DNA from: Tetrapyrgos nigripes
Lineage: Eukaryota > Basidiomycota > Agaricomycetes > Agaricales > Campanellaceae
NCBI GenBank assembly: GCA_013368315.1
Contig: JAACJM010000183.1
Location: 1-64,000 of the forward strand
DNA length: 64,000 nucleotides
Direction: 5' to 3'
A program made the translations under genes and the position numbers. The notes under the pieces are model-generated. The model worked only from the letters and a program-made list of their open reading frames with translations, was not told where the DNA came from and did not search any database. Shown piece after piece: positions 8,501 to 55,155 of the stretch (position 1 is its first letter; every line of letters begins with the position of its first letter).

Positions 8501-8519
8501 AAATTTTCGAACCCCCTTG
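2515..8519 (+). mobile_element. 6.0-kb DNA transposon, probably P-element-like
   Basis: The ends are CAAGGGGGTTCG and CGAACCCCCTTG, a 12-bp inverted repeat. They are flanked by the direct repeat ACTAGACT (2507-2514 and 8520-8527). Because the target is partly palindromic, a 10-bp duplication GACTAGACTC with AAGG/CCTT ends is also possible. Subterminal direct repeats of GGTCGGT words followed by GGTCC and AAAAAATTTTT occur at about 2548-2600 and 8437-8480. The element holds one gene (2824-8400). CA ends, an 8-bp duplication and the encoded motifs fit the P superfamily best. An empty paralogous target at about 15650 supports the borders. This copy has two frameshifts. Confidence 0.78.
2824..8400 (+). 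pseudogene. Large P-element-type transposase-like gene, two frameshifts
   Basis: I infer nine exons: 2824-2862, 2912-3555, 3615-4680, 4753-6840, 6893-7500, 7547-7678, 7737-8031, 8073-8228 and 8314-8400. Exon 2 opens with a CPWC...H...C zinc finger (about residues 20-45). The core has SVASDGEPNRGK (candidate first catalytic Asp), LVGDDDITIEKDNPHNCKRE, and GTNRLEILFGILRS (candidate catalytic Glu; compare the glutamate-FG-R block of P/THAP9 transposases). An acidic stretch follows (about 7570-7680). The C-terminus has CVCG...CCSNRGC...GWLCEVCE, a PHD-like cysteine pattern. The frame shifts near 5905-5920 and again near 7385-7400 without a fitting intron, so this copy is probably inactive unless these are sequencing errors. 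Similar long proteins are known to me from many Agaricomycetes, but I cannot name the family with certainty. Confidence 0.7.
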
Positions 8520-9100
8520 ACTAGACTCGTTCCCAGCCGGTTGGTAGAAAAGCGCCCTGGGGGAGTTTGAATGGGGGCGCGATCACCAACCGACTGGTAT
8601 CATATGTCGTCGGTTAGGACCCCTACCCCGTGGGAGAAAGGACTTAGCCATATTTTGGCGTTGTTTTAGGCTGCCGCTGCGAGGAGGGTGCATTTCGTAG
8701 GGAGTAGCTATGTTCTTTCGCTCTGGGGAAACATTATACAATGAGAAGTATGTAATCAAGCGTAATAAGAGTTAGTTTGACAATTATTCACTCCTCGTCC
8801 GAGCCGTCCGAGTCATTTTCAAGGCTCGTATCGACTTCCACCTCTACGACATCCATATCCAGCGCAATGTCCTCCTCATTCTCCAGTGTAACCTTCTCCC
8901 ACGGGGTAGGGGTCCTAATCGACGACATCCCCGACTCCGGACCGAAGGGACAGGAGGAGGGACGTGTCACACCGATCGATCAACAAATTCGGGTTCTGAA
9001 AATTTAAATGGCAATTCCCGCATGAGGTCATTGTTTTCAGCGTTCCATTGGCTTCTACGCTTTACCACCATGACTCTCTCGCAATGCCTCGGTCTTGCTG
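8520..9100. repeat. Dispersed repeat: right flank of the 6-kb element plus a diverged copy
   Basis: 8528-8640 continues the repeat interrupted at 2515. From about 8928 a second, diverged copy has ATCCCCGACTCCGGACCGAAGG, GGGACGTGTC and ACCGATCGATCA, then GCATGAGGTCATTG, GCGTTCCATTGG and TTACCACCATGACTCTCTC. The same word order occurs at 9893-10010. No gene is seen. Confidence 0.65.
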
Positions 9101-9689
9101 CCAGCGCGTGCCCATTATTCCTTGCTCAACGTTGTCAGAGCTCTTGCAACTTTTGTCTGCTATCGACCTATTGCATCTCCACCAGCATGTAGTAGACCAT
9201 ACAGCTCCGAACAAGCAATCTAAAATATTGAGAGCTCGTTTCAAAGCCGATGTTATTGCCGAAAAGCTACTTTATTCAGAGAATTTTGTCTACAGCTTTC
9301 TTGTTTGCTCACGAATATGAAGCAAAGTGTCAAGTAATGGACCGCGCTTTCAGTGAGGGCTTTTGTCGTCTGTTCAGTGAAAAGGTTTTATATTCAATGG
9401 TTCAGTCTGGGTGCTGTCAGAACCGATCAATTCATTCCGACTCCAGATGTAACCAACAATCATCACAAATCCTAATTTTTGATCCCATTGATTTGTATCG
9501 ACCGCAGTTTTTGGAGGAATGAGATTGGTGGCCTGAGTTTGAAGACATGGAGAGTAATGGTCCTATACTGCGGAGTGTTAATTGGTCAATTGCGTGGGCT
9601 GCTTTATGGTGCATGAGTGGAAATGTTTTTGGAGCTACGCTGCTAGTAGTGAGTACTAGTACTGTCAGGGTCCAGGGAACTTGCATATA
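9101..9689. other. No recognisable gene
   Basis: Short frames only, on both strands, without splice-consistent extension or recognisable motifs. Confidence 0.45.
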
Positions 9690-12431: not shown

Positions 12432-12474
12432 AATGAAAGTAGTCACTGGTCTTGTTGAAAATGGGCACACAATA

Positions 12475-14100
12475 CAGTGGGTCAAAAAATTGTCCACATG
12501 TTTCGCATTTTTGGAAAGATTGCCAATTTAAGCAATACTGAGTAGAGATATTAAAATGTGGTCAGTGATGGGCAGAAAGCCCTTGATAAACGCTACAATA
12601 TTCTGTCTGTTTTGTCTTATTTGGCTTAAAACTCATGGAGATATGACTGATTTAAAATGGTATGTCATTTGGACAATTTTTTGACATGCAAGTGAAAATA
12701 CAGAAAGTGCTAGCTCAGTACTTGGTATGCCCTCCTTTGGCCTTCAACACAGCCTCAATCCTTCTAGGCATGCTCCTGATCAATTTCTGACAATCTTCTT
12801 CTGTGATTTCATCCCACTTTTCAGCTGCTCTGTCCCATATTTCCCAAACTCCAGAGGGTGCTGTGTCATATCCATTGAGCTTGTGTTTGAGGGTTGTCCA
12901 GAGGTGTTCAATGGGTTCAGGTCAGGAGATTGAGCAGGCCAGCTCATGCAATGGATGTTGTTGTCTTCAAACCACTTGGTGGCCAGTTTTGACTTGTGTT
13001 TAGGATCATTGTCTTGCTGAAAAATGGCCACCTCTGGATCAACACCCAAAATATCCATGCTCTCCAGAAGGTTGTTCTCCAAAATGTCCACATACTGCTC
13101 TGCATTCATCCTGCCCTCCACCTCTGCCATGTTTCCAACTCCTTCCCACCCCATACATCCCCACACCATGATATTTCCTCCTCCAAATTTGACTGTTTCC
13201 ACCACATTTCTCTCTCCCAAGGATTCACCCTTCCTCCCCCACACATACTGCTGTCCATCTGACCCATATCGATTGATTTTAGTCTCATCTGACCAAATAA
13301 CCCTTTTCCAGTCATCCACAGTCCAGTTTCTGTACTTCTGTGCAAAGTTTAAACGAGCCTTCCTGTGAGCTGCAGTGAGTTTGGGCTTCTTCTTCGTTTT
13401 AGATGTGTCCACATCATGCCTGAGAAGGGAATTTCGAATGGTTTGGGTGGAGACAGGTTGGTCAAGGAGGGGATTGATGTTTCTGGCCACTTCTGTAGCA
13501 TTTTCAGCTTTGCCAGTGTTGATTTGTTGGATAGCAGCACGTTCATCAGTGGTAGACAGCTTTCTAGGACGCCCTGCTTGATGGTTCTCCTTGTCAGGAT
13601 ACATCTCTTTGGCCAGAGAAGCAATCTTTGACTTGGATACCCCAGTTTTAGCAGAGATTTCCCTGGATGAAGCAGAAGTTTGGAGGAGAGAGAGGATATT
13701 GTCTTTCTGGGTGGATGTGATGGGTCTCATGATTTGATGAGGGCTATAGAACAACTGGATGCCCTTATATATGGTCCAGCTGGCAGCTATGATATCATTA
13801 TGATGTAGCCATTGCATCATTGTACAACTCCACTTATGATGTCATCTATGAGACATCACATAGTTACAATACTGATTTTGAAGTGGCAACTCAAAAAATT
13901 GTCCAAATGACATACCATTTTAAATCAATCATATCTCCATGAGTTTTGAGCCAAATAGGACAAATAAAACAGATTATTGTAGCTCTTATCAAGGGCGTTC
14001 TGCCCATCACTGACCACATTTCAATATCTCTACTCAGTATTGCTTAAATTGGCAATCTTTCCAAAAATGCGAAACATGTGGACAATTTTTTGACCCACTG
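12475..14100 (-). mobile_element. Complete Tc1/mariner transposon, 1.63 kb
   Basis: The element is flanked by TA on both sides (12473-12474 and 14101-14102). Its ends are CAGTGGGTCAAAAAATTGTC and the exact reverse complement. The terminal inverted repeats are long, about 212 bp (12475-12686 and 13889-14100). Each ends inside with an inverted copy of the tip (GGACAATTTTTTGA), giving two transposase-site-like motifs per end. One minus-strand transposase frame lies between them. TA duplication, long inverted ends and a DD34E transposase identify the superfamily. Confidence 0.95.
12715..13730 (-). pseudogene. Tc1-like DD34E transposase, frameshifted at the catalytic Glu
   Basis: Cut-and-paste transposase. 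From the start at 13730 the protein has an N-terminal helix-turn-helix region (SSREISAKTGVSKSKIASLA), a GRPRK hinge, and a second helical region. The RNase H-like catalytic core follows, with the first Asp in VIWSDETKI and the second in IFQQDNDPKH. The third catalytic residue should lie in SPDLNPIE. Here one base is missing at about 12911-12914, so the frame leaves the conserved path after SPDLNP. The intact downstream sequence continues in the next frame to a stop at 12715-12717. The copy is therefore probably inactive. An upstream in-frame extension to 13820 exists, but the start at 13730 fits the family N-terminus better. Confidence 0.92.
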
Positions 14101-14199
14101 TACTTCAGGCTAGACATAGAATGGATACAATTAACAAGATTTAGCTACATTTTTCTAGCCTTGACCATAGCCCTAGTTAGTCTCTGACTATGTGCTGAA

Positions 14200-36699: not shown

Positions 36700-37110
36700 G
36701 ATGATGGTGGTAGATGTCTGAGAGAAGACTGGGAAAACTATGCCCAGAATGTGCTCCTATTTATACAGAAGTGACTTCATCGATTTCTCTTGAGAATGTA
36801 ATGTCAATGATCCTCAAGACTAGAAAGGAAATCGGGGAAAGTGGTTAGTAAGTGAAGCTAGCGAAGACTCACGCAAGGTGACACACGCGCGCGTACGTCC
36901 ATAGAAGTTATCCGACTGAAAACTGTGTTAGTACCTAGGATTTCGGAGAGAAGGTTGTTGTCTCATACACTGATACAGTATGCCAGTGCGGAGGAGGAGG
37001 AGGAGTGTATTACCGGGCTGGGAAAGCTTGAAAGTTACGAGGCCCTTTAAAATAACTTCGAAAAATTTCCCAAGGGTTCAGTCTCCCACCCCTTTCCATT
37101 AATTTCATTA

Positions 37111-37772
37111 CACGCCGAAAAGGGACAAATTTCCGCTCGATGGATATGTGACCGGATATGTGTACGAAAATGAGATATATTGGGAAAGTAGATATAAATA
37201 CAAAAAGATGATGTATCCGTAGACTAGATATCTGAACAGAAAGCCAATATATCTGGAAGTCTTTTGGTACATTTGATTGGTGCACAGACACATGGCATAT
37301 CGAATGTATGGAAAAAAGTACAAAAAGACCTCATATCGAGGCTCCGGACATGGTCACGGACATGGGTCCGAAAAGACAATAAATCCGGCTTCCAGATATG
37401 AGTCCCAATAGTTCATATGTCCGTTGAACGGATAGGTGGATTCTGGCCTATCCGTTCAACGGACATATGAACTATTGGGACCCATATCTGGAAGCCGGAT
37501 TTATTGTCTTTTCGGACCCATGTCCGTGACCATGTCCGGAGCCTCGATATGAGGTCTTTTTGTACTTTTTTCCATACATTCGATATGCCATGTGTCTGTG
37601 CACCAATCAAATGTACCAAAAGACTTCCAGATATATTGGCTTTCTGTTCAGATATCTAGTCTACGGATACATCATCTTTTTGTATTTATATCTACTTTCC
37701 CAATATATCTCATTTTCGTACACATATCCGGTCACATATCCGTCGAGCGGAAATTTGTCCCTTTTCAGCGTG
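37111..37772. repeat. 660-bp near-perfect palindrome (foldback element)
   Basis: The left arm (about 37111-37436) is followed by a short spacer (TGGATTCTGG, 37437-37446) and its reverse complement to 37772. At the centre GTTCATATGTCCGTTGAACG faces its complement. The outer tips are CACGCCGAAAAGGG and CCCTTTTCAGCGTG, flanked by TTA on both sides (37108-37110 and 37773-37775). Differences between arms are few (for example CTCGATGG versus CCGTCGAG). It looks like a foldback MITE or a hairpin-derived insertion. The apparent coding frames inside are mirror images and not genes. Confidence 0.9.
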
Positions 37773-37775
37773 TTA

Positions 37776-38221: not shown

Positions 38222-38885
38222 AAACCTGTCCTGTGGAACCACGGAATGAGTGTGCAGGCGTTGAAGGATTATGAGGTGGTTATGTTCGAGAAGGGGAGGG
38301 TGTTGGTAGAGAGGTGAAAGAAGTGTGCTAGCAGTAAGGAGGTGAGGGATATGGAGGTGGATTGGGTAAAGTGGATTAATTATTTGAGGTGCGTCCTCTT
38401 CCTGGATTGGTTGCAAATAGGCTCGATCTTATGAGTGAAATGGCGCATAGGCGTACTATATATCATTGCCCGTTTCCTCTTCGATTCATTACTCTCTTCA
38501 CCTTGTCACATATGCCTATCATTTTGTCTTACCTTTCTACTTAACGTTCTCTATCTCTATCTCTCTCTTTCTTCAATTGGTCTATTCCTTTATCAATCCT
38601 TTATTTCTTTTACATCCACTTAGGGTTAACCCTACCCTAACCCTAAGACTCGGATATCACACGTGTGAAACATGTGACTGACGCGTCGCAAGTCGCGATG
38701 CGTTCCTCGTATTATAAAGTCCTTGGGCATTTCACCACGTGAAGTACTAGACATTTACCTGAAATCAAGACCACATATGTAGGAAAGATTCACGTCATTA
38801 ATGTCCTCAAGCAACTACATACATACACCCACTCCATACAAAAAGAATGCTCTTGTTCACTTCGTCGAGATCCACATTGCAATCC
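38222..38885. other. No intact gene; telomere-like tract
   Basis: Contains the possible relic continuation noted for 37776-38221, a pyrimidine-rich stretch (38470-38620) and the telomere-like tract at 38619-38646. The segment from about 38695 is the duplicated 3' flank of the PLC-like genes. Confidence 0.45.
38619..38646. repeat. Interstitial telomere-like tract
   Basis: TTAGGGTTAACCCTACCCTAA followed by CCCTAAG: one TTAGGG unit facing about three CCCTAA units. TTAGGG is the usual fungal telomere unit. The inverted arrangement resembles a head-to-head join or insertion of telomeric DNA at a break, but the tract is too short to be certain. Confidence 0.5.
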
Positions 38886-38889
38886 AAGC

Positions 38890-40333
38890 TCAAATCCCGT
38901 TCAACATATCAACAGCCGCCATACCCTGCCCTAAATTCACATAATCAAGCATGACAAAGTTCGGTGCAACTCCTCCGGCTAGTGATTGGCAACCGAACGC
39001 GTCGGCGAGGATTCTAGCATATGTGCATGTAGCGGTGTAAAGGTCAAAATTTCTCTGCTCAATATCTAAAGCACCAGAATAACTTACGAAGCCACGCTAT
39101 TCGTGGTTGGAGCGTCTCCCGGGTCGCTAATAAGGACTCCCGTATCAAATAGGTTGATGTCGAGATTATGGTTGAGCATGCTGAGGTGGTCTTCAGTCGA
39201 CAACGGGCCTTGGATACGGTCAACGGAACATGGGAAGCTGGGGTCAGTAGAGTCGAATGGAGGCTCCCATAGCTGCATATCAGAGCAATTAGAATATGAC
39301 TTCTGCATAGACTCGGGGAACGACAAAGTTAACACTCGCCATCGTAAACTCTGGCAGAATAAAATCAACGCTTCCATCTGCACCGGCGTCCATGAATACG
39401 ATGACACGTTTTCCACTATCAATGAGTTCTCCGAGAGTCGGCCATTCGAAACGTTTCATGGGTTGGTGAGGAGGAACATAGGTGAAGGGAGTGACACCTG
39501 TAAGTAGGAAGGGCATCAATTTTATGAGTATAATTGTCAATGAAGGTTGCAGGTATACGCACCGGAGTTGTCAAAAGCAGGCTTCCACATATCTGTGAGC
39601 GACAGTCCCTCGGGATTGGTGAAAAGAAGGGTAAGGACTTCATTAGGGTTGGCATCCAGGAACGTCTTAACCTGGGAAAGATAGTCGACGACAAGGCCTC
39701 CATCGAACAGGTCCTAGTAAATTGCGACGCGACACAGGTATGAAAGGTTCAGTGATGAGATGGTGATAAATTTATTCTACATACGCAACCTGTGGTACAC
39801 AGGTGGAAGAAAACAAAAATAGAATCAGTCATTCGTATCAAAAGGCCGCCAGATCGTGGAAGACGTACTGGTATGACAGAAATGTAGCTCCCCGTCATTC
39901 CTGTAAGTGCAGTCTCCATCAGCACCTTAAACAGAGACATCCAAATCGCAACAACAACACACTCGTGGGCTTGAGACTGTAAAAATCGTACTCCCAAGTT
40001 GAGCTGACTCGGGATATCCACCTCTTGATCTCTGGCCACTGTTCCAATTCCCATGAATATCATGCCAAGGAAGGGAAAACGTCATCACCACGCACGTGCA
40101 AGAGGATTCTCGCTGAAAAACGCAGAATCATGAGATCCCAGGAAGGTCGTGTTTCCATACGGCTTGGCACATAATTGGGCGTGTCCATTACAAACCGTGG
40201 CTCTGAAAACAGGTGATAAGTAACATGCAGGTCACTGGGAGTCCTCAGTGAAGTACCTTTTGCTTGGTAACGCAGCTCCAAGGGCACCAGAGATAGCAGA
40301 GAGCGCTAAAGCGGCTTGGAAAGCAACGAACAT
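38890..40333 (-). CDS. Secreted PLC-like phosphodiesterase, copy A
   Basis: TIM-barrel phosphodiesterase of the PI-PLC X-domain type, secreted; substrate unknown. About eight introns. Exon 1 (from ATG 40333) encodes the signal peptide MFVAFQAALALSAISGALGA. Exon 2 has CNGHAQLCAKPYGNTTFLGS and HDS with the catalytic His-Asp pair. The next exons have DQEVDIPSQLNLGVRFLQSQ and AHE, then NDGELHFCHTS (second His). They are followed by LFDGGLVVDYLSQVKTFLDA, NPEGLSLTDMWKPAFDNSG, VIVFMDAGADGSVDFILPEF, FPCSVDRIQGPLS and LMLNHNLDINLF-type sequence. The C-terminus is GGVAPNFVMLDYVNLGQG...LNGI, with the stop at 38890-38892. I see no break. It is the first of three tandem copies. Confidence 0.82.
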
Positions 40334-40339
40334 TGTAGA

Positions 40340-41257
40340 CTGTTGCACGTCAGCGAAGGACGCTATAAACCCAGTGGAGACGGCCTCGAGAAGGGAGGGC
40401 GAGGGCAATAAGAGCTTGGAGACACTATCAGGGCTTTATATCGTCGCTATTCACGTTCCATGTGGTCGAAGGTCAAGAAGATCACTGCCAATGCGGTTGC
40501 GAGTGACCCACGTTTTTCCAAAATTGTTTGGTAAAAACGTCCAAATTAAACATCGCCATCGTTGCCCAGGTGGCAATTGTTGGCAACAGCAAGCCAACAG
40601 CATCCAATTCAGATGATTGCTACACGAGAGCCTAAAATACCAATAAAGTAAAATTGGCAATATTCAGACTATTTTAAGCAGTACTCAAGAGGACCTACTG
40701 TACTTCATCTTTCCAACAAACTTGAGGCAAATTTCAGGTTAAAATAAATAGTAATCGTAACCCTCACATCATGCTCTTTTCTGGAGAGGAATGGGTTTAG
40801 GAGCAACGAAGGAGTTGTAGGGCGTCTTCAAGAGTGCAGGTAGATGGTTTTTGGCACTGTGTGTCGCGCAAGGAGTCAGAAAATGGCGGTGAAGAGAAGC
40901 CACGAACAACGTACTTACTTTGCTTCAGCCATAGTCTACGTCGAGATTGAGAGAAGAGGAAGTCGGAATGAAAAAGACTAAGGAGAGCGTCTAAAAAGAC
41001 TTGGAATGGATTTCGTAGACAAACACAAGAAAGAAAGGAGGTCACGACGCGTTCCTCGTGAAAGTCCTTGTGCATTCCATCACTTGAAGTGCTAGAAACC
41101 TGACTTCAGGACCACATACTAGCAAATATTCATGTCATTATAGATAGATAGATAGATGATGTCGTGAACAAACTACATACGTGCACCCACTCAATACCCA
41201 AATAGCTCAAGCTTTCACTGTTGCTTCTTCACCGTTCAAATCACTTGCAATCTAAGT
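40340..41257. repeat. Spacer between PLC copies A and B (duplicated)
   Basis: No gene. AGGACCTACTGTACTTCATC (40690) with AACTTGAGGCAA recurs at 50050. TTGGAATGGATTTCGTAGAC (40999) recurs at 51370. The block CGTTCCTCGT, AAGTCCTT, GAAACCTGACTTCAGGACCA (about 41050-41120) recurs near 51420 and, diverged, near 38700. The spacer was copied along with the genes. Confidence 0.7.
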
Positions 41258-42692
41258 TCAATACCCATTCAACCTGTCCACGGCCGCTTTGCCCTGCCCT
41301 ACATTCACCCAATCAAGCATCACAAAGTTTGGCGCAACTCCTCCAGCGAGTGGTGCGCAACCGTTCGCGTCGGCAAGGATTCTAAGTAGCATATATCAAG
41401 TCAAAAATCTCTCTTCTCAATATGTAAAGCACCAGAATAACTTACGAAGTTATGCCATTTGTTGTTGAAGCGTTTTCCCTGTCGCCCATAAGGATCGCAT
41501 TAAATAGGTTGATGTCGAGATTATGGTTGAGCATGCTGAGGTGGTCTTCAGTCGACAACGGACCATCGATACTGTGAACAGAACAGGGGAAGCTGGGGTC
41601 GGTAGGGTCGGTTGGAGGTTCCCATAGCTGCATGTCAGAGCAGTTAGAATATGACCTCTGCATAGACTCGGAGAACGACGAGGTTATACTCACCATTGGC
41701 AACTCTGGCAGAATAAAATCAACGCTTCCATCTGCACCGGTGTCCATGAATACGATGACACGTTTTCCACTATCAATGAGTTCTCCAAGAGTTGGCCATT
41801 CAGAGCGTTTCATGGGTTGGTGAGGAGGGACGTAGATGAAGGGAGTCAAACCTGTAAGTAGGAAGGCATGCATCCACTTTTATGTGTACATTTGTGAATG
41901 AGGATTGCATGTATACTCACCGGAGTTGTCAAAGGCAGGCTTCCACAGATCTGTGAGTGATGGTCCCTCGACGCGGTTGATGAACAGAAGGGTGAGGACC
42001 TCGTTAGGGTTGGCGTCTAAGAATGTCTTGACCTGGGAAAGGTAGTCGGCGCCGACAAGGCCTCCATCGAAGAGTATCTAGTAGATTACGAAGCGACACA
42101 TGCACGAAAGGTTTAGTGATGGGAGATGGTAATAAATTCACTCTACATACGCAACCTGTGGTACGAAAATGAAATAGCATCAGTCATGGATGAAAGGTCG
42201 CCAGATCGTGGAAGACGTACTACTATGACAAAAATGTAGCTCGCCGTCCTTCCTGGAACAAAGTAAGTGTAGTCCTCGTCAGCAGCTTGAGCAGAGATAT
42301 CAAAATCACAACAACGAACTCGAGACCCTGCGACTGCAAAACACGTACACCCAAATCGAGCTGACTGGGGATATCCACCTCTTGAGATCTGGCCGCTGTT
42401 CCCATTTACATCAACGTTACCATCATGCCAATACTATCATCACCACCCACTTGCAAAAGGATCATTGCTGACAAACCAAGAATAATGAGATCCCAGGAAG
42501 GTCGTGTTTCCATACGGCCTGCTGCACAATTCGGCGCGTCCATTACAGACCTTGGCACTATAACAGATGGTAAGTAACACTGTGCGGGTGACTGGGAGCC
42601 TCAGTGAAGTACCTTTTTCTATGTGATGCAGCTCCAAGAGAACCAGATATAGCAGAGAGCGCTAGAGCGATGTGGAATGCAACTCGAAACAT
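41258..42692 (-). CDS. Secreted PLC-like phosphodiesterase, copy B, altered active site
   Basis: Paralogue of copies A and C with the same exon layout, signal peptide (MFRVAFHIALALSAISGSLG) and C-terminus (NFVMLDWVNVGQGKAAVDRL, stop at 41258-41260). Two conserved positions differ. The His-Asp pair in GSHDSAF of A and C is GSHYSWF here, so the Asp that pairs with the catalytic His in PI-PLC-type enzymes is lost. QSQAHE is QSQGLE. The second His (LHFCHSS) is kept. Coding frames remain open as far as I can follow, so a protein with reduced or changed activity is possible. The DUF6589 element lies about 650 bp upstream of its start. Confidence 0.75.
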
Positions 42693-43338
42693 CGTAGACA
42701 GTTGCACGTCAGGCGAAGTATACTATGTACGAAGTGCAGACGCCCTTGAGAAGGGGAAGGAAGAGGACAAGATGAGACATCAGGGTCATATATTGTCGCT
42801 TTTCAGTGTTCTCGTTCCATATATTCTACACGTCGCGAACTCTGGCAAAATTATTTCAATGAAGATGTTTGCTCCCATACAAATTGACGTCAGTTCACGA
42901 CGTGTAGAATGTAATATGGACGGCAGGGGTCGACATACTTTGGTCCTTAGTCTATTTTTAGGCGAACATGAATGTATACTAACACTAAGTGAACTAATAA
43001 ATGTCGAATAAAAACTTTCGCAAAGAACGAGTCCTTTTAAAGGGCCTCGTAACGGGGCGTAGCTCACTTCTAGTGTCAAAATAGTATCATTTTGTAAACA
43101 TTGTAAACAACACGGGAGACCCACGGGGATTCATTTTTTTAACCCGTCCCCGCGCCCGCCCGATCCTGCGCCCGCTGATACGACTGCAAGTTGTACACCC
43201 TGTAAAATCGGGATGATTATAGTGGCGGCGGAGTATGGCCGCTAGCGGCAAGGGTCGAACCAAGGTCGAACCTTTGTTTGAGTAGTAAAAGTCCTTAGTC
43301 AATGGCACTGGTTTGGCGTTCAATGTACTTGAGAGTAC
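42693..43338. other. Upstream region of PLC copy B; fragment of the GC-rich MITE family
   Basis: No gene. At 43108-43175 CACGGGAGACCCACGGGGAT and TTTTAACCCGTCCCCGCGCC resemble one end of the hAT MITE at 1457. The palindromic word CTTTTAAAGGGCCTCGT lies at 43032. Confidence 0.45.
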
Positions 43339-43515
43339 TAGACTCGAACCACTCTCACTGTGTACACTTTGATGACGGTCGATCAAAAGTGTCAGCGTAG
43401 CGACTGGAGGGAAATCCCACACTTTTGTGAGGTCGCGGAAAAATCACGTGCTTGTTTTGACTTCAACAAAATTCTCCTCATCCCGAAAAAAACTTGCTCC
43501 ATTTTTCGAGCTTTG
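43339..43515 (+). repeat. Left terminal inverted repeat of the DUF6589 element
   Basis: Pairs in reverse complement with 49848-50021. The best-conserved blocks are the tip TAGACTCGA, GTCGATCAAA, AGCGACTGGA, CACTTTTGTGAGGTCGCG, AAATCACGTGCTTGTTTTGA, CATCCCG and AACTTGCTCC. The start codon of the DUF6589 gene lies about 160 bp inside, so this repeat probably also holds its promoter. Confidence 0.9.
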
Positions 43516-43671
43516 AGTTCTTGAGTAGTACCTAGGACGTGCAGGAAGTAAAACGAAGGACATTACCGTTTTCCGAATTTCAAAATACGCGCGTGATGTA
43601 AAGTTACGGACTAGATACTAATATAGGGGCTTGTCTCACTTTATCCTGCTGCTGTCCCTTCACGTCACGAA

Positions 43672-46600
43672 ATGTACAAAGGAAAGCGCAAGAAAGACGA
43701 CGAGAAGGCCTTCAAACCCCCTGGATCTGCACAGAGTAGTGCTAGAAGGCGTAGTACGCGACTTTCCCAACAGGTGGGATCCGAAACAGCGTCAAGCTCC
43801 CAGCCTGCGGAAACTCCATCAGGCCCATGGAGGGCTCGGCGGAGGCGTCGAGAAGATGATGTTGACCGGCAGGCTGGTCCATCTAAAAAGAGAAGAAGCC
43901 AAACTCCCGAATCACCAAAGGATTCTGAAATCCCTATTCCCCATCTATCCCCATTACCATGGTCATCCCCGCCTCAATCATCTTCACTGCCACTGCCCCC
44001 TCCACCTCCGAAAACTCCTAATAAAAGACGTCTCTTTCCACCACCGAATGGGAATTTGATTCTATCCCCATCAAAGCCCAGTCCCAGTCCCACTCGCGTG
44101 TTTCCCCAGTCTGATTCAATTGCGGATCCACATACATCTTCCTTCGTCTTTTCCAATCCAATCCAATACCCTTCCGAGAGTCCGGTGCAATCACCGGCAT
44201 CTAGTCCAAGCCCATCCGTACTGTCCAGTCCCAATCGGCCCCTAACAGGCAGACCACACACCTCGAGACATGTCCGAAATAGACGAGGTATTATGAAATA
44301 TCGGCAGACAGATGAATACAAGGAAAGGATGTTGAGAGAGAAAGCTGCGCAAGAAGCCGTAGAGCTATCCCGAAGGCTAGAGAGGAAACAGGAGCTTGAA
44401 CAGAATTTGGGCAGAGAGAAATTGAAAATGGTTGACAAAGCTCATGGGATTTTTCGAAATCTTGCAAAGCCTGAAGACGAAGGTGGACATGGATTTCAAA
44501 GTGCCAAGGACTTCTTCAATTCGCTCTTGGAGCCAGGCAGCGATAGCCAGACGACTGCGAATATCACTCGTTTAATACGATCTGATGGCGCAAAGTGGAT
44601 GGGAAAGATTGCTGATCGGCATGAGGATGCTTATCGCGGATTTGTGGACGATTATATGGCTGAGAGGATTGAAAAGGAGGGCCGAGCAATCCAGAAGTAT
44701 TTGACTCGCCAGTCTGGAATGCGAATGGCTGAGATCGTCGATGAATTTTCGTTGGAGACATTCAAGACAGAAATTCAGGCTATGGCTCCGATACTGTGGT
44801 CAGTGATGACGAGTGCTACAAATAGTGGTAGCGAGACAAGAAGAGACAAGGAGCTGGTGAGTTTACGGCATACCTTTTTGATTTTGCCACATTTCTCACA
44901 CCGAGCGTGATTGGAACAGGTTTTTGTGACAGTCTGTGCTATGTTCAGCCTTCTTCGCTCACAGAAGGCAAACAAATTTCAGATTGTGATTGGCCTTTTT
45001 CTCCTGGGATCTGGAGCCTCAAAGCGTGAGATGGAGGTCCTCGCTCACGCAGGTTTTACGATGTCATACAACACAATTGTTGATCATGTCCATTCCTTGT
45101 CCAAAGAGAACTTGGACGAAATTCGCGAACTCGTCCAAGAATTTATGTTCTCACTCCTCTGGGATAATCTCAACATCGCATTTCATATTGGAGAGCAGCG
45201 GCTTGACTCGAAAGCTCACTTCGACAGCAGTACAACATCCACACTTGTCCTCTCGTGGAATCCAATCACAAAATCACCACGGACACCATACGGCATTCTA
45301 CCTCTCGATCTAAAGCCTCCTCGCAACTCAGAAAAATTGCTGATTGACAACCCCGAGTCCCTGTTCAACTTATCACCATCAGATGCAGTTATCCTCGACA
45401 AGTGTCTGCTGTGGCAACTGAAAAGTTTGGCCATAACTCACCTCCCCGAATTCTCTCATCTATCCAGACAACTCGAGTCCTGCCCATCAGTTGATCAGAT
45501 TGAACCCCACATTACTGAGCAACATCCATTGCCGGCAATGTACATTGACGAATCCAGCTTGGATGGGACTAGTCAGGTGTACTCGGAGATCCTTCAATGC
45601 CTGAAGATCTCTGAAGAGGATCTCAAGAAACACGGACTTTTATTCATTGATGGTGATCTACTGACAGATAGTCTAATTGACAAGGTGAGTAAGTTTTCGG
45701 CGTCAAGCACTGATCTATCCAAAACTAACTATTGATCTTGAGCTTGAATCATCACGTCGTAATAACACTCAAGTACTCGATGGACTGCAAGCCGTCGTTC
45801 GGAGATTTGGATTGTTTCATTTCAAGATGGCGATATGTAGAATGGTTATCAATGAGCACTGGGGAAAGCCGAACTCCAAATGGCCTGGCGGGTTATGGTA
45901 CGAACATACCCAGCTTCTGAAAAGAAAGCCGATGATAGCAGGATGGAAGAGTAAGAAGGCAGCACCATGGAAACCTTCCCACGAACTTATCAGTATCTCG
46001 CTCCCTGCACACATCATTGATGGATTCCGGATCTTTTGCGGACGGGAAGACTTTCTCGAGTGGGCCAAGGAGGCAACAAAGGAGGAGTTTGATTGTGTGG
46101 TGCAATTAGTCTTTGACAACCTGTTCACCAGTGATGCTTACGAAGAGCAGCTTGATTGTGAGCACGACGACACTGTATTTCGAAACTCCATACTCTACAA
46201 TCACGATGCACTTCTCTATTGGATGGTTGTGACATCACTCAAGGCAGGAGACATTGGGTGAGTGGTTATACTTATGCGGAAGTGGATGATTATGATGCAT
46301 ACACCAAAGACGATGCCCAAATATGCAAGTGCGATTTTCGAGACACTTGGTCGACTTGAGTCCTTTGATCCTACTCTCAGGTAAAGTTTTTGCATCAGCC
46401 AGGCCTGTAGATATACTGATCATTATTTCAAAGGAAATTTTTCCTGCACAACTGGCTCATTAATTTAACTGGCAAGGCAGATCGTTTCAAGGAACTTGAC
46501 TTACTACAGGAACATCAGAACCTCTGGATGAAGGTATGTGCTCTGAGCCAAGGTTACACAAATTTGCACTAGTGACTTATATCTCACAGGTTGTGTATAG

Positions 46601-47138
46601 TGCGAGAGGCAGTAACAAAAGCTGGAACTGGCTTTCGATGATCTCCGTTTGCATTTATTCCCTCCGTGATGCAATGCGAACTGTCCAGAGTGCATTCAAG
46701 ATCACCGATTACGGTGTCTGGCATACAATTCCAGATATGTCTAAAGAAATTCAAACACTCACCAATGCGTTGAAGGCCGAGAGAATACAGGAACTTGTTC
46801 CCAACCGACCAGGAAATGATTCTGTGTTACCTGTCCGAAATTTGGTTCAGCAAGGGTCTCAATCGCTCATCAACTCAGCCTCCCCTGCATTCAGGAAGTT
46901 CACAAAATCCGAATACATAGTAGAGAACCTTGGACTACCAACAGGGGATGAAGCTGAACTGGCGATGGAAGAGCCAGACAATTTGGGAGAGAGTAGTAAT
47001 GGAGAAGAGCAGGATCCTGGTGATTACGAAGCTACAATGGAGGATCTTGCAGTTGATGCTGAAGAGCCATATGAATTTGCGGATGATCTTATCAACGCTG
47101 CGTCTGAGATGACTGATTTTATATTAGCCGATGATTAG
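43672..47138 (+). pseudogene. DUF6589 protein gene with one nonsense codon
   Basis: Five or more exons: 43672-44856, 44920-45684, about 45744-46380, about 46434-46533, about 46591-47138. N-terminus: basic, Ser/Pro-rich, disordered (residues 1-200), then a charged helical segment (YKERMLREKAAQEAVELSRR). The C-terminal two-thirds is the fungal DUF6589 domain: IGLFLLGSGASKREMEVLAH, then HGLLFIDGDLLTDSLIDK, RRFGLFHFKMAICRMVINEH, NWLINLTGKADRFKELDLLQ and RGSNKSWNWLSMIS. Function unknown; the acidic Asp in the FIDGD block and the conserved His/Asn blocks could form a nuclease-like site (inference). The frame is open except for TGA at 46259-46261, where homologues have Arg (DIGR...KYAS), a CGA to TGA change. 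No frame-consistent intron removes it. Confidence 0.85.
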
Positions 47139-47154
47139 AGAACATGTATAGTAC

Positions 47155-49712
47155 CTAAGACAATATAAAAGCTTCTGGAAGTTCAATCTCGTACTTGAGT
47201 GCTAGTTCAGAAAGTTTCTTGTTGAAAAAGCTTTCCAACTCATCAGCAGTGCGATAGATATCCGAGTCTTCCCTATTGAATGTCCTCGCGTTGGCAAACA
47301 TGATCTGCCAGGCATCGACGTACTGGGAGAGTGATGCGTATCCACTTTCAGCCTTCATCTTCATCATGCGATTGATGTGTGCCATCGATATTGGTGTCTT
47401 GATGATCTTGTAGTAGTCGGGCCAGTGCTTCAAAATCCCGAGTCAGCATACTAATAAGAACAGCGTTGTTCAAAGTCAAACAAATGACACACCTTTGAGC
47501 TCGGAAGTCTCAAGAACGGCTCGCATTTTAGTTCGCGTACTTCCTTCTTGTCTTTTCCTCGCCCCCTCGCCCCCACTTCACCTGTCTCTAGGTCATGCAC
47601 CGCATTGTAACACTCGTGGAACAGAGCAACGAGACGATTTCGCCGATCCTTCTCAGCTATCGATGCATGCTGACGCTCTGCTGCTTCCTCGCGACGTCGT
47701 TGTTCGGGATCTGGATAAAGCGCCAAGTGCCATTTGACAATTGCAATCACCTGGTTCCCATACCGAGTTGCCCATTGCCATGGAATAATGTGGCGAAAGA
47801 CATCCGAACCAAAACGTTCAACAACGGCTGGCCTTGCAACGATCTTTGCCAATGTTGCATCACTGAGTATCTGGCGGCTGGTAACATTCCTCTGGTCCAG
47901 ATAATCCTGCACTATGACATGGGTGCGCCATTGTTTCAAAGCGGCTTCAAGTTCTGTCTGTAGCTGCTCAGTTGGTTTTGACGATCTCCCAGCCCAGGTT
48001 GGATATGGTAAACGAAGGGAAATACGCTCGATGGGAAAGTAACGGGGAGCACAGTTGTCGCAGCATGGGACATCCAGTTCCTGAGGTTCAGGGAAGAGCG
48101 GCACTGCAGAAAGCACCGACTAAATCAGAGTATGATGCGAGTATATCAAATAACACAAACTTTTGGCATGATTCCCAAAAAATTCATCCCATGGTAAATG
48201 CCGGCACCGATTAGTAGCAATGATAAAGGTGAGATAGGCCAGGTCCCGCGCCTCTCTTGCAGATTTGACTTTGCAGCGCTTGCGCTTGACTACCAGATCA
48301 GGATCGGGTTCTGCGTCGGAGCCACTATTATATTCAGGCTCGTCTTCATCAATCACTGCTTCTCTATCCACCGGGTCCATGGCTCGGTCTATGATCTCCT
48401 CATCAATCTCAGCTCTATCCTCGCCGTTCTCATCATCAGATGCCTCATCTCTGTCGAAATCGGAAACGTGTCGAGCCATAGAAGCTCTGGTGACGAAAAG
48501 AATTGCTTGGCCAATGTCATGGGGGCTGCGAGCACATCGCCCAACCTTCTGCACAAATGATAGGAAAGAACGGGGTTCCAACCAAAGGACAACGCGCAGC
48601 ACATTCTTGAAGTCCATACCCTGACAGTAAGTTAGTATCTGAGATCATGAAGCAGATAATATCACAAACCATTCCAAGTGTATCTGTAGCAATGACAATC
48701 TTCAGATATCCGCTTCGTAGCTTTTCTTCAACTTCAGTCTTCCTATTTCCAATGTTTCGATGATAGAATTCAATTGTATCCGGGGACATAGTGGGAGGAC
48801 AATGGGCACGGAGAAAATCCTGAATGGCCTCGGCCTCCTTTCGAGTATTCACATAGATGAGGGTCTGCTTGAAGTCTTCTGGATTAGTGTCGTTCGGAAA
48901 AAGAAATAGAAGATCTGCGTATGTTTGAATAGGGTGTTGAATGACACGAACGGAGAGTCCAACGTTGGGTTTTGCATTAGAAACGGCAACAAGATCATAA
49001 TTCTCGCCCAAGTCGAGCTTTTCCGCTATCAGTTCACGAACATCTTGCGGCATAGTGGCCGACGCGATGAGAACAGGGACGTGACTCGGACAACGAGCAA
49101 GGAGCTTCCCTACAGCATCGTAATGAGGACGAAAGTCTCCGCCCCATTCCGCAATGCAATGAGCTTCGTCAACGACAACGGACACGCATGCAGATTTGAA
49201 TTCGTCAGTCTTCAAGAGCTTCTCGTGGAATGAAGACTTTAAGGCGGTCTCTGGGGAAGTAAGGATAACCTGGTGCTTGAGGTGACGTGTAGGGGGTTAA
49301 CTGGGATCCATGGTGATTTCCTGGCATCTTATGAGCACAAATACGCGAAAATATCTTAAGGAACACGCACCTCAAATAACTCTTCAGCCTTACTAGACGA
49401 GTTCAAGGCTACAGCTTGTATGCCCTTGTCCAACAAATCCTTCACCTGCGCATCCATCAGAGCATTGAGTGGACTAATGACCAGAACGACTTTCCGAGAC
49501 TGAGGGTTAAGTTCCGAGTGATAGAAAAGGGGATACCAGAAAGAGAGTGTTTTCCCGCCGCCTGTAGGTACGTCATAGATTGTACTTATGCCTTGTATGA
49601 TGTTACGGCCAGCTTTTTCTTGATGTTGGCGGAGCGAGGGGATACCCCAGGTCTCGCATAAGACATCTCTGGCGCGTTGAAGTGCTTCTTCATCTATCGT
49701 TGGTCGGTTCAT
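47155..49712 (-). pseudogene. RecQ-like helicase with C-terminal bromodomain, one nonsense codon
   Basis: ATP-dependent 3'-5' DNA helicase of the RecQ type. From the ATG at 49712: YDVPTGGGKTLSFW (Walker A), VISPLNALMDAQV (motif Ia), VVDEAHCIAEWGGDFRPHY (DEAH box), VLIASATM (motif III), QTLIYVNTRKEAEAIQDFL (motif IV), IVIATDTLGMGMDFKNV (motif V) and SFVQKVGRCARS (motif VI). A highly acidic insert follows, then a CCDNC zinc-type region. The last exon encodes HWPDYYKIIKTPISM, YASLSQYVDAWQIMFANART and FNREDSDIYRTADELESFF, the pattern of a bromodomain. Five exons. TAA at 49296-49298 (reverse strand), just after the second intron border, replaces an expected sense codon (probably CAA). The stop is 16 bp from that of the DUF6589 gene. 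Confidence 0.85.
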
Positions 49713-49847
49713 CGTACAGGAAGTGAAACAGAGAGCCGGAAGTGATCGAGGTCATTGCACGAGAACGGGAGCAAATATTGGGAAACGGAAAACGGTGAGT
49801 GCGTTGTATTAGACAGTACGATAGTTCTACATGGTCGTAGGTACCGT

Positions 49848-50021
49848 AAGGCGAAAATTTGGAGCAAGTTGTTGCGGGATGGTCGAGAAATCTGGCTAAG
49901 TCAAAACAAGCACGTGATTTGGGCGCGACCTCACAAAAGTGCCGGATTTTGTTCCAGTCGCTTCGCCAAGCGGTTTGATCGACTTTCATCAAACGTTGCA
50001 GACGTGACTGGATCGAGTCTA
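49848..50021 (-). repeat. Right terminal inverted repeat of the DUF6589 element
   Basis: Reverse complement of 43339-43515. The helicase start codon lies about 135 bp inside, so each terminal repeat sits immediately upstream of one of the two inward-reading genes and may act as its promoter. Confidence 0.9.
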
Positions 50022-51595
50022 TGAGAGTACTTATTCCGAGAGACAGGAGGACCTACTGTACTTCATCTTTCCGACAAACTTGAGGCAAGTTTCTGGTTAC
50101 AAAATACCCTCATATCATATTGTGTGTCGCGTAAGGAATCCACGAATTCGAAGCATGAACAACGTATAGCCATGATCCACGTGGAGATTGAGAGGAGAGG
50201 AGGTTGGAACAAGGTTGGAATGGAAAGGAGTAAGGAGAGCGTTGGAGTAGGGGTTTTGGGGCGGTCTAGGCCCTATGTTTCACGTGATCGCGTAGTCTAT
50301 TACGAGGCCGAATGAAATGAGGCTGAGTTTCTTACACTCTCTTTCCGCGTGTGGCTATGTTTAAGTGTTCCCTATTTTACCCGTCCGTTTCATTCCGCGT
50401 AATCTTCCATGTGATTTTCGTTTTGTTTGTTGTTGCTTTTCTTCTGCTTCCTCCATCCAGTTCTGTGATGTCACGACAAGCGCGATTTTGGCGGGCGCTG
50501 CCAAATGCGACAACGGACTTGCAAAAATCGACGTCCTTGACCTTCAAAAAAATTTTTTTTAGAGACTATCATATTTGTAGGATTTGAAGTTCGCTCTATA
50601 AGTTTATATAGGTCAAAAAAAATACGATTTTTTAAGTGGAATTTGACCGAGTACAGTGTACACTAGTGTAGCAAGAGTATGTATGGTTAAAGAGGGGAGA
50701 CATATCACCCCTACGAAGCCCTCGGGTGGTTCTGAGATCAACGCGAGCCGTTCTCGTGGGGTTCTGCACCTAGAAAACGTGTTGTTGGATGGTAAACAAG
50801 GTTTTCAGTAGAATTCTCACGGGTCTGTCTATTTGAGCAGGCGGTCGACTTGGCGTGGTGTCTCTGCAACTCATTAGCAAGCACGAAAATACAATGGAGT
50901 CTTAGTTCACAACAAGATGGGGTTGTGTAAGGGTTTAAATAAGGATTGGCAGTATTACGAGGCCAAATGAAATCGAGGATGAGTTGTTTACACTCCCTTT
51001 CTGCTGGTGGCTATGTTCTTACATTCCCGAGTTCTTCCCTCCGATTTTTCTCAAGGTCGGTCATCAGGCCCTATTCCAATCTGGATTCCAATTTCTTTTC
51101 CGAGTGATACAGAGCTCGACGTGTATTTCTGTTGACTCAATATGCTGTCACATCACTAGCTGCTCTTATGCATTTTCATACCCTATATTATACCCTTGAT
51201 CGTACTCCGCTGGAAATAGAAAGGCCTCGTATTCGCCACGCGTTAGCGTTGGCCCACAACCACTTCATAGCTTGCATGTACGCCGTAGCTAGCACTTGAC
51301 TTCAATCCACTGCGTTTGGCTCTGGCGTAGCGATAGCCAGCCCTCGGCCTACTCCAGCGTCTAAAAGGATTTGGAATGGATTTCGTAGACAAAGCAAAGA
51401 GGGAAAAGAGGTCGCGACGTGTTCCTCGTAAAGTCCTTAGGCATTTCATTACTTGAAGTTCTAGAAACCTGACTTCAGGACCACATAGTAAATATTCATG
51501 TCATTAATGTCGTGAACAAACTACACAAGTACACCCACTCAATTTCACTCTTCTTCCTTCTTCACGATCCAAATCAAATCACTTGCAATCCAAGC
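50022..51595. repeat. Duplicated 3' flank of PLC copy C; internal direct repeat
   Basis: No gene. 50050-50100 and 51358-51500 match the spacer at 40340-41257. A local direct repeat TTACGAGGCC.AATGAAAT, GATGAGTT, TTACACTC.CTTTC, GTGGCTATGTT occurs at 50300-50372 and 50954-51016. GGCCTCGTATTCGCCACGCG (51221) matches 22969. Confidence 0.65.
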
Positions 51596-53044
51596 TCAAA
51601 ACCCATTCAACCTGTCCACAGCTGTCTTACCCTGCCCTACATTCGCATAATCAAGCATGACAAAGTTCGGCGCAAGTCCTCCGGCGAGTGGTGCGCAACC
51701 GTTCGCGTTGGCGAAGATTCTGAGTAGCATGTTACATATATCAGGTCAAAAGTTTCTCCCCTCTCAATATGTAAAGCACCATAATAACTTACGAGGTTAT
51801 GCCATTCGTCGTTGGAGCGTGTCCCCTGTCGCTGATAAGGATTCCCGTATCGAATAGATCGATGTCGAGATTATGGTTGAGCATACTGAGGTGGTCTTGG
51901 GTTGACAACGGGCCTTCGATACGGTCAACAGAACAGGGGAAGCTGGAGTCGGTGGAGTCGAATGGAGGTTCCCATAGCTGCATGTCAGAGCAATTAGAAT
52001 ATGACCTCTGCATAAGTAGACTCGCAGAACGACCAAGTTAATACTCACCATTGGAAACTCTGGCAGAATAAAATCAACACTTCCGTCTGCACCGGCGTCC
52101 ATAAATACGATAACACGTCTCCCACTATCAATGAGTTCTCCAAGAGTTGGCCATTTTGAGCGTTTCATGGGTTGCTGAGGAGGGACGTAGGTGAAGGGCG
52201 TCACGCCTGTAGAGTTATATGTAAGACTTGTACACCTGCCAATGAAGTTGTATCTAGACGTACCGGAGCTGTCAAAGGCAGGCTTCCACGTATCTGTGAG
52301 TGATAGTCCTTCGGGGTTGGTGAACAGAAGGGTAAGGACCTCGTTAGGGTTGGCGTCTAGGAATGTCTTGACCTGGGAAAGGTAATCGACGACAAGGCCT
52401 CCATCGAAGAGTATCTAGTGGTAGCGACACAGGCACGGAAGGTTAAGTGATGAGGAGAGATGATAACAAATTCACTCTACATACGCAACCTGTGATACAA
52501 AAATGAAAACAGGATTAGTCATGGATGAAAGACCGCCAGATCGTGCCAGAAGACGTACTAGTATGACAGAAATGTAATTCGCCGTCCTTCCTGGAACAAT
52601 GTAAAGTGCAGTCCTCGTCAGCAGCTTGAGCAGGGACATCAAAATCACAACGACGAACTCGTGAGCCTGCGACTGCAAAAAACGTACGCCCAAACTGAGC
52701 TGACTCGGGATATCCACCTCTTGATCTCTGGCCACTGTTCCCATTTACATCAACGTTAATATCATACCAAAGCGTAAAAGAACTAATCATCACCACCCAC
52801 ATGCAAAAGGATTCTCGCTGAAAAACGCAGAATCATGAGATCCCAGGAACGTCGTGTTTCCATAAGGTCTGCTGCACAATTCGGCGCGTCCATTACAGAT
52901 CGTGGCTCTATAACAGATGGTAAGTAACACTGCGGGTTGGCACTAGGAGTCCTCAATGACGTACCTTTTTCTCGGTAATGCAGCTCCTAGAGCACCAGAT
53001 ATAGCAGAGAGCGCTAGAGCGATTTGGAATGCAACTCGGAACAT
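51596..53044 (-). CDS. Secreted PLC-like phosphodiesterase, copy C
   Basis: Third paralogue. Signal peptide MFRVAFQIALALSAISGALG from the ATG at 53044. The following exons encode CNGRAELCSRPYGNTTFLGS with HDS (catalytic His-Asp intact), DQEVDIPSQLSLGVRFLQSQ with AHE, and KDGELHFCHTS. Further on come EWPTLGELIDSG-type sequence (KWPTLGELIDSGRRVIVFMD), FPCSVDRIEGPLS and the C-terminus NFVMLDYANVGQGKTAVDRL, stop at 51596-51598. No break was noticed. Intron positions match copies A and B. It is separated from copy B by the 6.68-kb transposon; before that insertion the two genes were about 2.2 kb apart. Confidence 0.8.
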
Positions 53045-55155
53045 CGTAGACCTTTCGCGTCAGGTGAAGTATGCTATGTATCAAGTGCAGACGGCCTCGA
53101 GAAGGGGAGAAGAGGACAAGAAGAGTTTGCAGACACATCAAGGCCATATATTGTTACTTTTCACGTTCCATGTCGAAGGTCAAGGAAGTGAATTAATCAA
53201 CTCAGGAAGATCACTTGGCAATGTGGTTGCGCGTGACAAGTGATACACGTTTTCCAGGATTCTTTGGTTAAAACGGTTCGCCAGCATTGTGATACGAATA
53301 TCAGGCGGAAAGTCATAAAGAGCAAGAGATCAGAAGTGCACTATTGTGCGTTCCTGATCTTCAGCCTCTACATACTCGCCTATTTACACCTCCCATATGC
53401 ACGTTGCAGACGCCATGTGAGAATCACCACGAAAGGGATGCGCGATACCCTCAAGATAGTCTACTTCTGAAAAATGACTGACAATAAGTATCGATATCAG
53501 TGAACGGCCGTAAATATCCTCACATGCTCAGATCATTTGGAGGAGGGCTATCAGGCCTAGTAGGAGGGAGAACGCGCACGGCGTTCGGATCAAGAAGACT
53601 TGACTCAGTTAGCTCTGATGGAATAGCTTTCGGCCATGCCATAGACGGATACCGTCCCCATATAAGTACAGGTTAGATCAAGTTAGATCCAGATTATGCA
53701 CGGTATGAAGGGCTACGGGCCACGCACGTACTCTAATCATGCAGGTACACTTAACTCCGTGGGCACATACTACATAGTATGTACGAGAGAACTGGAAGTA
53801 GCGGATTTCATGCCTGCAGTCTAAGGTCAGCGAGATGAATGTACCAGGTTTAGTAATGCTCGTACTTCAAGTTGCCCGTATGAGATTCAACATCGGACCC
53901 AGTGGATTGGGGTGGGGCAGATTAAAGGCAAATAGTTAAGGTCTACGTATGGTTGCAGCCATATTCGTGAACTTGGGTAATCAGAAAAGCAGAAGAAAGT
54001 AAAATTTACCTGAGTTTGACCCTCGTTAAAGCTGCCAGTAGACTTCGGGTGTCACTAAACCAATAGTAGACTTTTGGCGAGCAAAATGCTGTCGACGTTG
54101 AGGAAAAGGGAAGGAGTTTGGCAGTGTTTGTATCAGAGTCTTTCGGCTGTGATGTACACGTGTACTTTCTATCCCCCTCTTCCACTGCCACGACGAACCC
54201 CCTACCCAGCCAGTGTTCCTTCTGCAAGGTCTCGACCAGCAAGAGACTGAGAACCGCATGTGATTGACTAGCTTTATTTTTCCTGCCCATATCGGGCTTC
54301 CAAAAATGCCGGTCCTTGAGTGTCCTTGCTATGATTTTGTTGTGATTTTGTATCAATTTTCTATGGCGATTCTCTCACCAAACGCCACTGAACACTCTGG
54401 TACAAAGCCTTGGTATCAAAAACCAGTCCCAAAATGCAATCTTGTGACCTCATACTTCGGGCTGACTCAAGGACTCAATGCGGATCAACAAGTTGCGACC
54501 CATCAAGTAAACTGTATACCTTTTTAAAGTTCGGATCCCTTGGTCTAGGATCTGCTCGGGATCCTCTAGAACATAGTATACTGGGTTCAGTATGTGCGAA
54601 GCCTCGCTCAAGTCAGTAGCAGAGTTTTCTCTCATTTTGCTCACGACTTTACTCTTGGTGGGCACTAGACGTCAAAATTGTGACGCGCCATCAACAGAAG
54701 GATTCGTGAATAGTTCTCAAGCTCTCAAGACCGTCCCGCAAGCTGCATTCTTTCCTATAGTTGACAACGTACCTTTCTTTGATGGCAGTCTTTTCTCGCT
54801 CTTTCTAGGCCTGGAAATGAGAATAGCGCAGTCAAAAACGACCTCGTGATGAACCAGAACGCAAGTGCCTACGCCAACATTATTCAGTCATCCCAGACAC
54901 CTTGCACAAAGACAAGATCAGCTGATAGCGGATTCCTTACTCTTCGCAGTTTATTTCAACGCGGAACTTGTCTCGAACAGGATATCAGAGATATCCCAAG
55001 CACAAAACTGAAATGCATCTGGCATCTGGACCTGATGACATCGGACAGTGCGGCAGTCCGTGAAGGCGTATTTATACCTGCACTACCCTTTCCTGTGTTA
55101 AAAAAAATCTGGTTCTTAGCCAGTTTTAACCCACTTCTCATCGACTACCTTCAAG
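53045..55155. other. No recognisable gene
   Basis: Short frames on both strands without motifs. The minus-strand frame at 54356-54006 and the plus frame at 54846-55178 are Ser/Leu-rich and lack splice support. The first about 450 bp are upstream sequence of PLC copy C. Confidence 0.45.

Follow-up and report, generated by a model that had tools for sequence, protein, structure and literature searches.

The DNA analyzed here, a stretch of 64,000 nucleotides from the genome of the basidiomycete Tetrapyrgos nigripes (the window), contains between positions 43339 and 50021 a pair of genes enclosed by inverted repeats. One codes for a protein with the Pfam domain DUF6589 (PF20231) and the other for a RecQ-type helicase. 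The locus raises the questions of whether this pair is mobile, what DUF6589 contributes to it and to which class of transposons it belongs. The unit is confirmed as a genuine DNA transposon, and it is very probably a full-length, slightly decayed element of the AcademH type in which DUF6589 acts as the DDE transposase with the assistance of the RecQ-type helicase.

Boundaries and gene content of the element

The window copy (43339-50021) is 6683 bp long and is flanked by two copies of TGAGAGTAC, a perfect 9-mer whose chance of occurring at a fixed place is about 4e-6. Over 174 alignment columns its two inverted arms share 77.6% identity, and local alignment of the two ends gave a score of 89 compared with a maximum of 17 for 1967 random window stretches. 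The terminal inverted repeats of about 170 bp and the perfect 9-bp flanking duplication described in an earlier note on this DNA were therefore both borne out. Subterminal hairpins were considered as well, and the idea was dropped: shuffled versions of the left end fold just as well (z 0.31), and the right end is slightly better than its shuffles (z -1.76; 10 of 200 shuffles equally good).

The positions of both genes are given in Table 1 according to splice models in which the sites are our own reading, with no annotation behind them. The spliced DUF6589 model has 1069 codons, including one in-frame stop, and the Pfam DUF6589 profile matches three plus-strand open frames with E-values of 8.5e-22, 5.2e-36 and 1.6e-07. 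The two genes converge, with the DUF6589 stop codon at 47136-47138 facing the helicase stop codon at 47155-47157. The predicted helicase carries Pfam DEAD (residues 29-195), Helicase_C (247-347) and bromodomain (661-735) matches. Among solved structures, the top helicase matches are 1oyw (E 7e-33), which is E. coli RecQ, and 4tmu, a structure named RecQ. The NCBIfam models recQ and recQ_fam are the best for this protein, both below their curated cut-offs. The splice models, open frames and domain matches agree with the earlier note in its description of two convergent genes coding for DUF6589 and for a RecQ-bromodomain helicase. It had also called the element autonomous in type. The helicase frame of the window copy is open, but the in-frame TGA in its DUF6589 gene makes the copy probably non-autonomous.

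Table 1. Features of the transposon and its flanks in the window
Feature	Positions	Strand	Basis or remark
Left target-site duplication TGAGAGTAC	43330..43338	.	
Left terminal inverted repeat	43339..43508	+	terminus TAGACTCGAACC; about 170 bp
DUF6589 gene, probable DDE transposase	43672..47138	+	splice model and PF20231
DUF6589 exons	43672-44856, 44920-45688, 45774-46380, 46434-46533, 46590-47138	+	splice model
Candidate catalytic Asp 1 (LLWDNLN)	45163..45165	+	D218 of P0038; conserved in 89/91 aligned DUF6589 proteins
Candidate catalytic Asp 2 (FIDGDLL)	45655..45657	+	D382 of P0038; conserved in 90/91
In-frame TGA in DUF6589 gene	46259..46261	+	splice model; overlooked in the earlier note
Candidate catalytic Glu (DLLQEHQN)	46510..46512	+	E632 of P0038; conserved in 76/77 ungapped, of 91 aligned
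RecQ-type helicase gene, 763 aa, without internal stop	47155..49712	-	splice model, homology
Helicase exons	49712-49371, 49275-48670, 48620-48161, 48103-47493, 47427-47155	-	splice model
C-terminal bromodomain of helicase	47242..47430	-	PF00439
Right terminal inverted repeat	49852..50021	-	terminus TAGACTCGATCC; about 170 bp
Right target-site duplication TGAGAGTAC	50022..50030	.	

Copies, deletion derivatives and uninterrupted related sites

A search of the genome (98.46 Mb in 587 contigs) with the left end as query yielded at least 41 matches (40 of 75 candidates scored). Contig C94 holds a 6.7-kb copy that matches the window element at 99.2% identity over 6672 bases and whose DUF6589 gene contains several single-base insertions and deletions. 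Internal deletions have removed most of the DUF6589 gene from the copy on C48 and everything except the ends from that on C71. End-only derivatives of about 117 bp are numerous, with matches that cover 110 or more of the 117 bases and have identities of 77-100% in at least 28 places (40 of 85 candidates scored). In a scripted test of 19 copies, target duplications were detected in 15, of which 13 are 9 bp and 2 are 8 bp long; none was found in the other four copies tested (L056, L060, L065 and L067). The duplication counted for C94 is that of the small element enclosing the copy. Outside the 19 scripted copies, 8 of 9 duplication bases match by eye on C79.

The copy on C94 (L061; C94:220900-228200) is a full-length element lying within an oppositely oriented end-only derivative of its own family, an arrangement more suggestive of capture, or of repair by template switching at a break, than of normal insertion. 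Three other copies (L043, L046 and L048, on C12, C4 and C107) form a separate subfamily of non-autonomous elements that are 1411-1428 bp long, have the termini TAGACTCGTAAC/TAGACTCGTTAC and are flanked by 9-bp duplications. A helicase piece of about 41 amino acids persists inside copies of this subfamily.

The flanks of the 15 duplication-bearing copies were joined with one copy of the duplication kept and searched against the genome (40 of 157 candidates scored); for 9 of the 15 the search was repeated with longer flanks (40 of 44 scored). With eight of the joined-flank queries, a related site matches straight over the junction: L066, L069, L068, L048, L063 and L062 with the first flanks, and L059 and L058 with the longer ones. 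The joined flanks of L066 match at 100% over the entire 120-base piece in 16 places. Letter alignments for six of these eight elements (seven alignments) are gap-free at the junction, each with a single copy of the duplicated bases. Within those bases L048 has one mismatch, and of two relatives for L058 the more distant one has two; the L063 alignment has a one-base gap directly outside them. These sites are related empty sites in repeats of the same genome, as distinct from the same locus in another strain, and they show insertion, not excision. For the joined flanks of the window copy, no uninterrupted site was found among the candidates scored in this genome, longer flanks included. The element is seen to insert as a unit, mostly with a 9-bp duplication, and copies that have lost most of DUF6589 or consist of the ends only have inserted too.

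The window flanks lie among tandemly repeated paralogues, a setting in which the inverted repeats and the 9-bp match could have arisen by chance or belong to some larger, unrelated element. We give this reading practically no credence. The same ends and duplications occur at many unrelated places, a near-identical copy resides on C94 and sister elements have uninterrupted related sites; the copies with other flanks already refute it.

The DUF6589-helicase pair as a recurrent mobile unit

The earlier note had proposed looking for RecQ genes in the vicinity of other DUF6589 genes, and the pairing indeed recurs. From 108 DUF6589 exon matches, 54 loci were listed by hand, and a piece of the window helicase used as query identified 59 helicase loci after merging. 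A helicase piece is present within 5 kb of 27 of the 54 DUF6589 loci, as against 0.34 expected under random placement of the helicase loci, in a count that includes two near-identical, non-independent loci on C80 and excludes a genome-wide Pfam DEAD search (36 of 205 candidates scored). All 27 pairs are on opposite strands, 19 of them convergent, 8 divergent and none tandem. A second, distant helicase query added the locus on C5 and, at E 3e-5, the one on C422, bringing the count to 29 of 54, all with the two genes on opposite strands. In some of these pairs the helicase piece is short or its match weak (E up to 7e-4). The C25 pair is doubtful, its helicase piece being located in a separate short derivative. 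At the other 25 of the 54 loci, several of which are fragments, no helicase was found within 5 kb; two of them have a helicase farther off, at 5.9 and 6.8 kb.

Eight pairs were extracted and their ends inspected: those on C179 (the window), C185, C107, C80, C24, C37, C8 and C94. The earlier note had named pairs without inverted ends or target duplications as evidence against a transposon. Inverted ends and a duplication of their own are present in the C179, C185, C107 and C80 pairs (9, 9, 9 and 8 bp, respectively), so three of the seven pairs besides the window's do not show the refuting outcome. The remaining four are incomplete in this regard: the C24 and C37 pairs have inverted repeats and no duplication was found for them, the right end of the C8 pair was not found, and the C94 pair, inside its end-only derivative, lacks 1 and 12 bases at its two ends and has no separate duplication. 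On C80, the stretches 5394-9156 and 72579-76341 are the same DUF6589-helicase element in opposite orientation, with helicase pieces 99% identical, and represent an inverted duplication or a feature of the assembly.

The DUF6589 frames of C8, C37, C24, C185 and C107 share 22-36% identity with their best window-clade match, and the profiles of the two DUF6589 clades align with 100% probability and 21% identity over 450 columns. In most of these pairs the termini remain alike (TAGACTCGA, TAGGCTCGG and TAGTCTCG), the terminus of the C185 pair is CAGGCTCC, and different termini go with different DUF6589 clades. Three distant DUF6589-helicase pairs are among the eight elements with uninterrupted related sites, which indicates that the pair itself is the mobile unit. 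The recurrence of the DUF6589-RecQ pair as such a unit is supported by these observations.

The bromodomain has a narrower distribution. Seven of the 23 bromodomain matches in the genome adjoin a helicase of the window subclade (on C179, C94, C48, C316, C29, C363 and C8), and these seven helicases are 47-100% identical to that of the window. On contigs C80, C24, C107 and C185, no bromodomain was found in a search that a diverged one could escape. The helicase-joined bromodomain thus appears to mark this one subclade and to have been gained late. When only long DUF6589 proteins were searched, one fusion to a helicase and none to XPG turned up: an annotated protein of Paramarasmius palmivorus has DUF6589 and a recQ-type helicase in a single chain, and may be either a gene model merging two genes or a one-strand arrangement unseen in the Tetrapyrgos nigripes genome.

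DUF6589 as the probable transposase

Two homologue searches with DUF6589 proteins returned 172 and 642 matches at E <= 0.001, sets that may overlap and the second of which includes many metagenome proteins. PF20231 is present in all 240 homologues listed (the best 120 of each search), and all named organisms among them are fungal. For analysis of conservation, 91 homologues were aligned: 41 from the window clade (alignment A1, which has 42, with P0110 taken out) and 50 of 121 later ones of at least 680 amino acids. In the numbering of P0038, the most conserved positions include D218 (W/Y-D-N), D382 (G-D) and E632 (D-x-x-x-E-x-x-N), with the counts given in Table 1, and H417 (G-L-F-H), kept in 90 of 91. 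Three conserved acidic residues are a trait of DDE transposases that the DUF6589 proteins share, and the D-D-E pattern is present across two deep DUF6589 clades. We propose D218, D382 and E632 as the candidate catalytic residues from their strand-then-Asp context, other acidic residues being equally conserved (D536 in 91/91 and D563 in 88/91). The Pfam DUF6589 model begins at residue 283 of P0038, after the first candidate Asp.

Among the best 25 of the 39 Pfam families that match any of 42 DUF6589 proteins at E <= 10, there is no DDE family and no convincing secondary relative of DUF6589; apart from DUF6589 itself, E falls under 0.001 only for Tas3-like_N, in 1 of the 42 and below its cut-off. 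Five PDB sequence matches to the DUF6589 profile (E 0.7 to 3.6) were judged to be chance.

The tested exons of both genes look selected. For two DUF6589 exons, five of ten comparisons gave dN/dS values of 0.07-0.15; against the decayed C94 copy the values are 0.52 and 0.57, one of them coming from very few changes, and 3 of the 10 comparisons were not computable. One helicase exon gave 0.05-0.18 in 5 of 5 comparisons. Codons containing stops were excluded throughout, and many of the dS values are near saturation.

It is very unlikely, in our estimation, that DUF6589 is non-catalytic and that the pair is cargo which some other genomic element mobilizes in trans. The many deletion derivatives must be moved in trans, and catalysis by DUF6589 is itself something that we infer. 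On the other hand, the window copy contains no gene other than those for the helicase and DUF6589, a helicase accompanies DUF6589 at 29 of 54 loci, DUF6589 has kept its Asp-Asp-Glu pattern in two deep clades, its dN/dS is low in half of the comparisons, and the termini differ between its clades. The recurring mobile pair, the duplications and the D-D-E pattern together point to DUF6589 as the probable transposase, as the earlier note had suggested.

Relationship to AcademH and other superfamilies

AcademH is, as Kojima reportedly set out in 2020, a lineage of the Academ superfamily, of which terminal inverted repeats are a trait. The mark of AcademX is a nuclease of the XPG kind. MULEs often make 9-bp duplications, and an element with such duplications and long inverted repeats could be taken for a member of MULE/MuDR; however, no MULE or other DDE domain was detected in the proteins of the window element or among the best 25 of the 39 families matching the 42 homologues, and this assignment was rejected. 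KolobokH elements, according to passages of PMC9587614, are likewise fungal, indeed found in fungi only, and likewise encode a RecQ helicase, next to a DDD/E transposase, but Kolobok duplications are TTAA, a sequence found in none of the 15 duplications here. KolobokH was rejected on this ground, and a placement in either KolobokH or MULE/MuDR is highly improbable.

Excerpts of PMC10045372 give the duplications as 9 or 10 bp for AcademH and 3 or 4 bp for its sister lineage AcademX, a difference seemingly tied to the helicase of the one and the nuclease of the other, and passages of PMC10799480 describe AcademH as low-copy elements of Basidiomycota, Ascomycota and Mucoromycota. Fungal Academ copies, in the sections of Muszewska et al. 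(2019; PMC6416283) that deal with them, encode the helicase domains PF00270 (DEAD) and recQ_fam and have frequently been annotated as host genes; those sections contain no occurrence of DUF6589 or bromodomain and do not state how long the duplications are. An excerpt of PMC8290104 reports putative non-autonomous Academ elements as widespread in Marasmius oreades.

The window element resembles AcademH, as portrayed in those excerpts, in its RecQ-type helicase, 9-bp duplication and Basidiomycota host, to which its terminal inverted repeats can be added, and it resembles the fungal Academ copies in its recQ-type and DEAD helicase domains. Its family departs from the 9 or 10 bp given in the PMC10045372 excerpts in that 2 of the 15 duplications are 8 bp. 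AcademX was rejected, since the element has 9-bp rather than 3-4-bp duplications and no XPG nuclease among the Pfam matches of its frames; none of the 10 XPG_I matches in the genome is on a contig bearing DUF6589 loci. Judged by the traits described in these citing papers, the element most likely belongs to the described AcademH, not to a new class, and is a probable new member of it. Two claims of the earlier note are not supported on this reading of the sources: that the element is undescribed, since helicase-bearing transposons with 9-10-bp duplications are reported from Basidiomycota (PMC10045372 and PMC10799480, in the passages above), and that no known superfamily has such a pairing, since fungal Academ carries DEAD/recQ_fam helicases (PMC6416283, likewise). 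No report linking DUF6589 to a transposon was found in the open-licence literature searched. As far as that literature shows, the new point is the link between Pfam DUF6589 and the transposase of such elements.

One could instead regard the DUF6589-RecQ elements as a superfamily of their own outside Academ, which came independently to have both a DDE transposase and a RecQ helicase and to make 9-bp duplications. No other Pfam family among the best 25 of 39 is common to the DUF6589 proteins, DUF6589 is unnamed in the relevant open-licence literature searched, 8-bp duplications do occur, and our comparison with Academ is one of described traits, not of sequences. Yet the combination of helicase, 9-10-bp duplications and Basidiomycota host fits AcademH as excerpted above, a second superfamily of this description would be a coincidence, and fungal Academ copies carry the same kinds of helicase domain (PMC6416283, in the sections cited). 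We consider a separate superfamily unlikely.

A model for transposition and its implications

We favor a model in which DUF6589, as AcademH-type transposase, would bind the terminal inverted repeats and cut the ends, then join them to the target at 9-bp staggered cuts, the repair of which would leave the 9-bp duplication. The RecQ-type helicase, whose gene lies on the other strand, probably opens the ends or processes the gapped joining intermediate, and in the subclade that has it the bromodomain may tether the complex to acetylated chromatin. Smaller copies would be moved in trans. A bolder version, in which DUF6589-RecQ elements are a superfamily apart from Academ with an obligate helicase and a captured bromodomain that steers insertion of the subclade to acetylated chromatin, is an outside possibility.

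If PF20231 marks the transposase of helicase-carrying Academ elements, genes of this kind should be masked as mobile DNA and not counted as host genes, and any mushroom genome allows an immediate check. A transposase that comes with its own RecQ helicase, plus a chromatin-reading domain in one subclade, would also provide a concrete system for asking why some DNA transposons need a helicase.

Other features of the window

Three paralogous stretches that are 80-84% identical lie at 38715-40480, 40986-42776 and 51356-53125, with the transposon between the second and the third; the three frames scanned in them gave no Pfam match. Long plus-strand open frames of 396, 451 and 364 amino acids occupy 3541-6896, and no Pfam family scored above cut-off in them. 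At 37110-37773 there is an almost spacerless, near-perfect palindrome of 664 bp (97.6% self-complementary), a fold-back element or an assembly artefact. A Tc1/mariner-type element is located at 12473-14102, with inverted ends at 12473-12684 and 13891-14102 and a minus-strand transposase frame (12780-13841) that matches DDE_3 and HTH_Tnp_Tc3_2.
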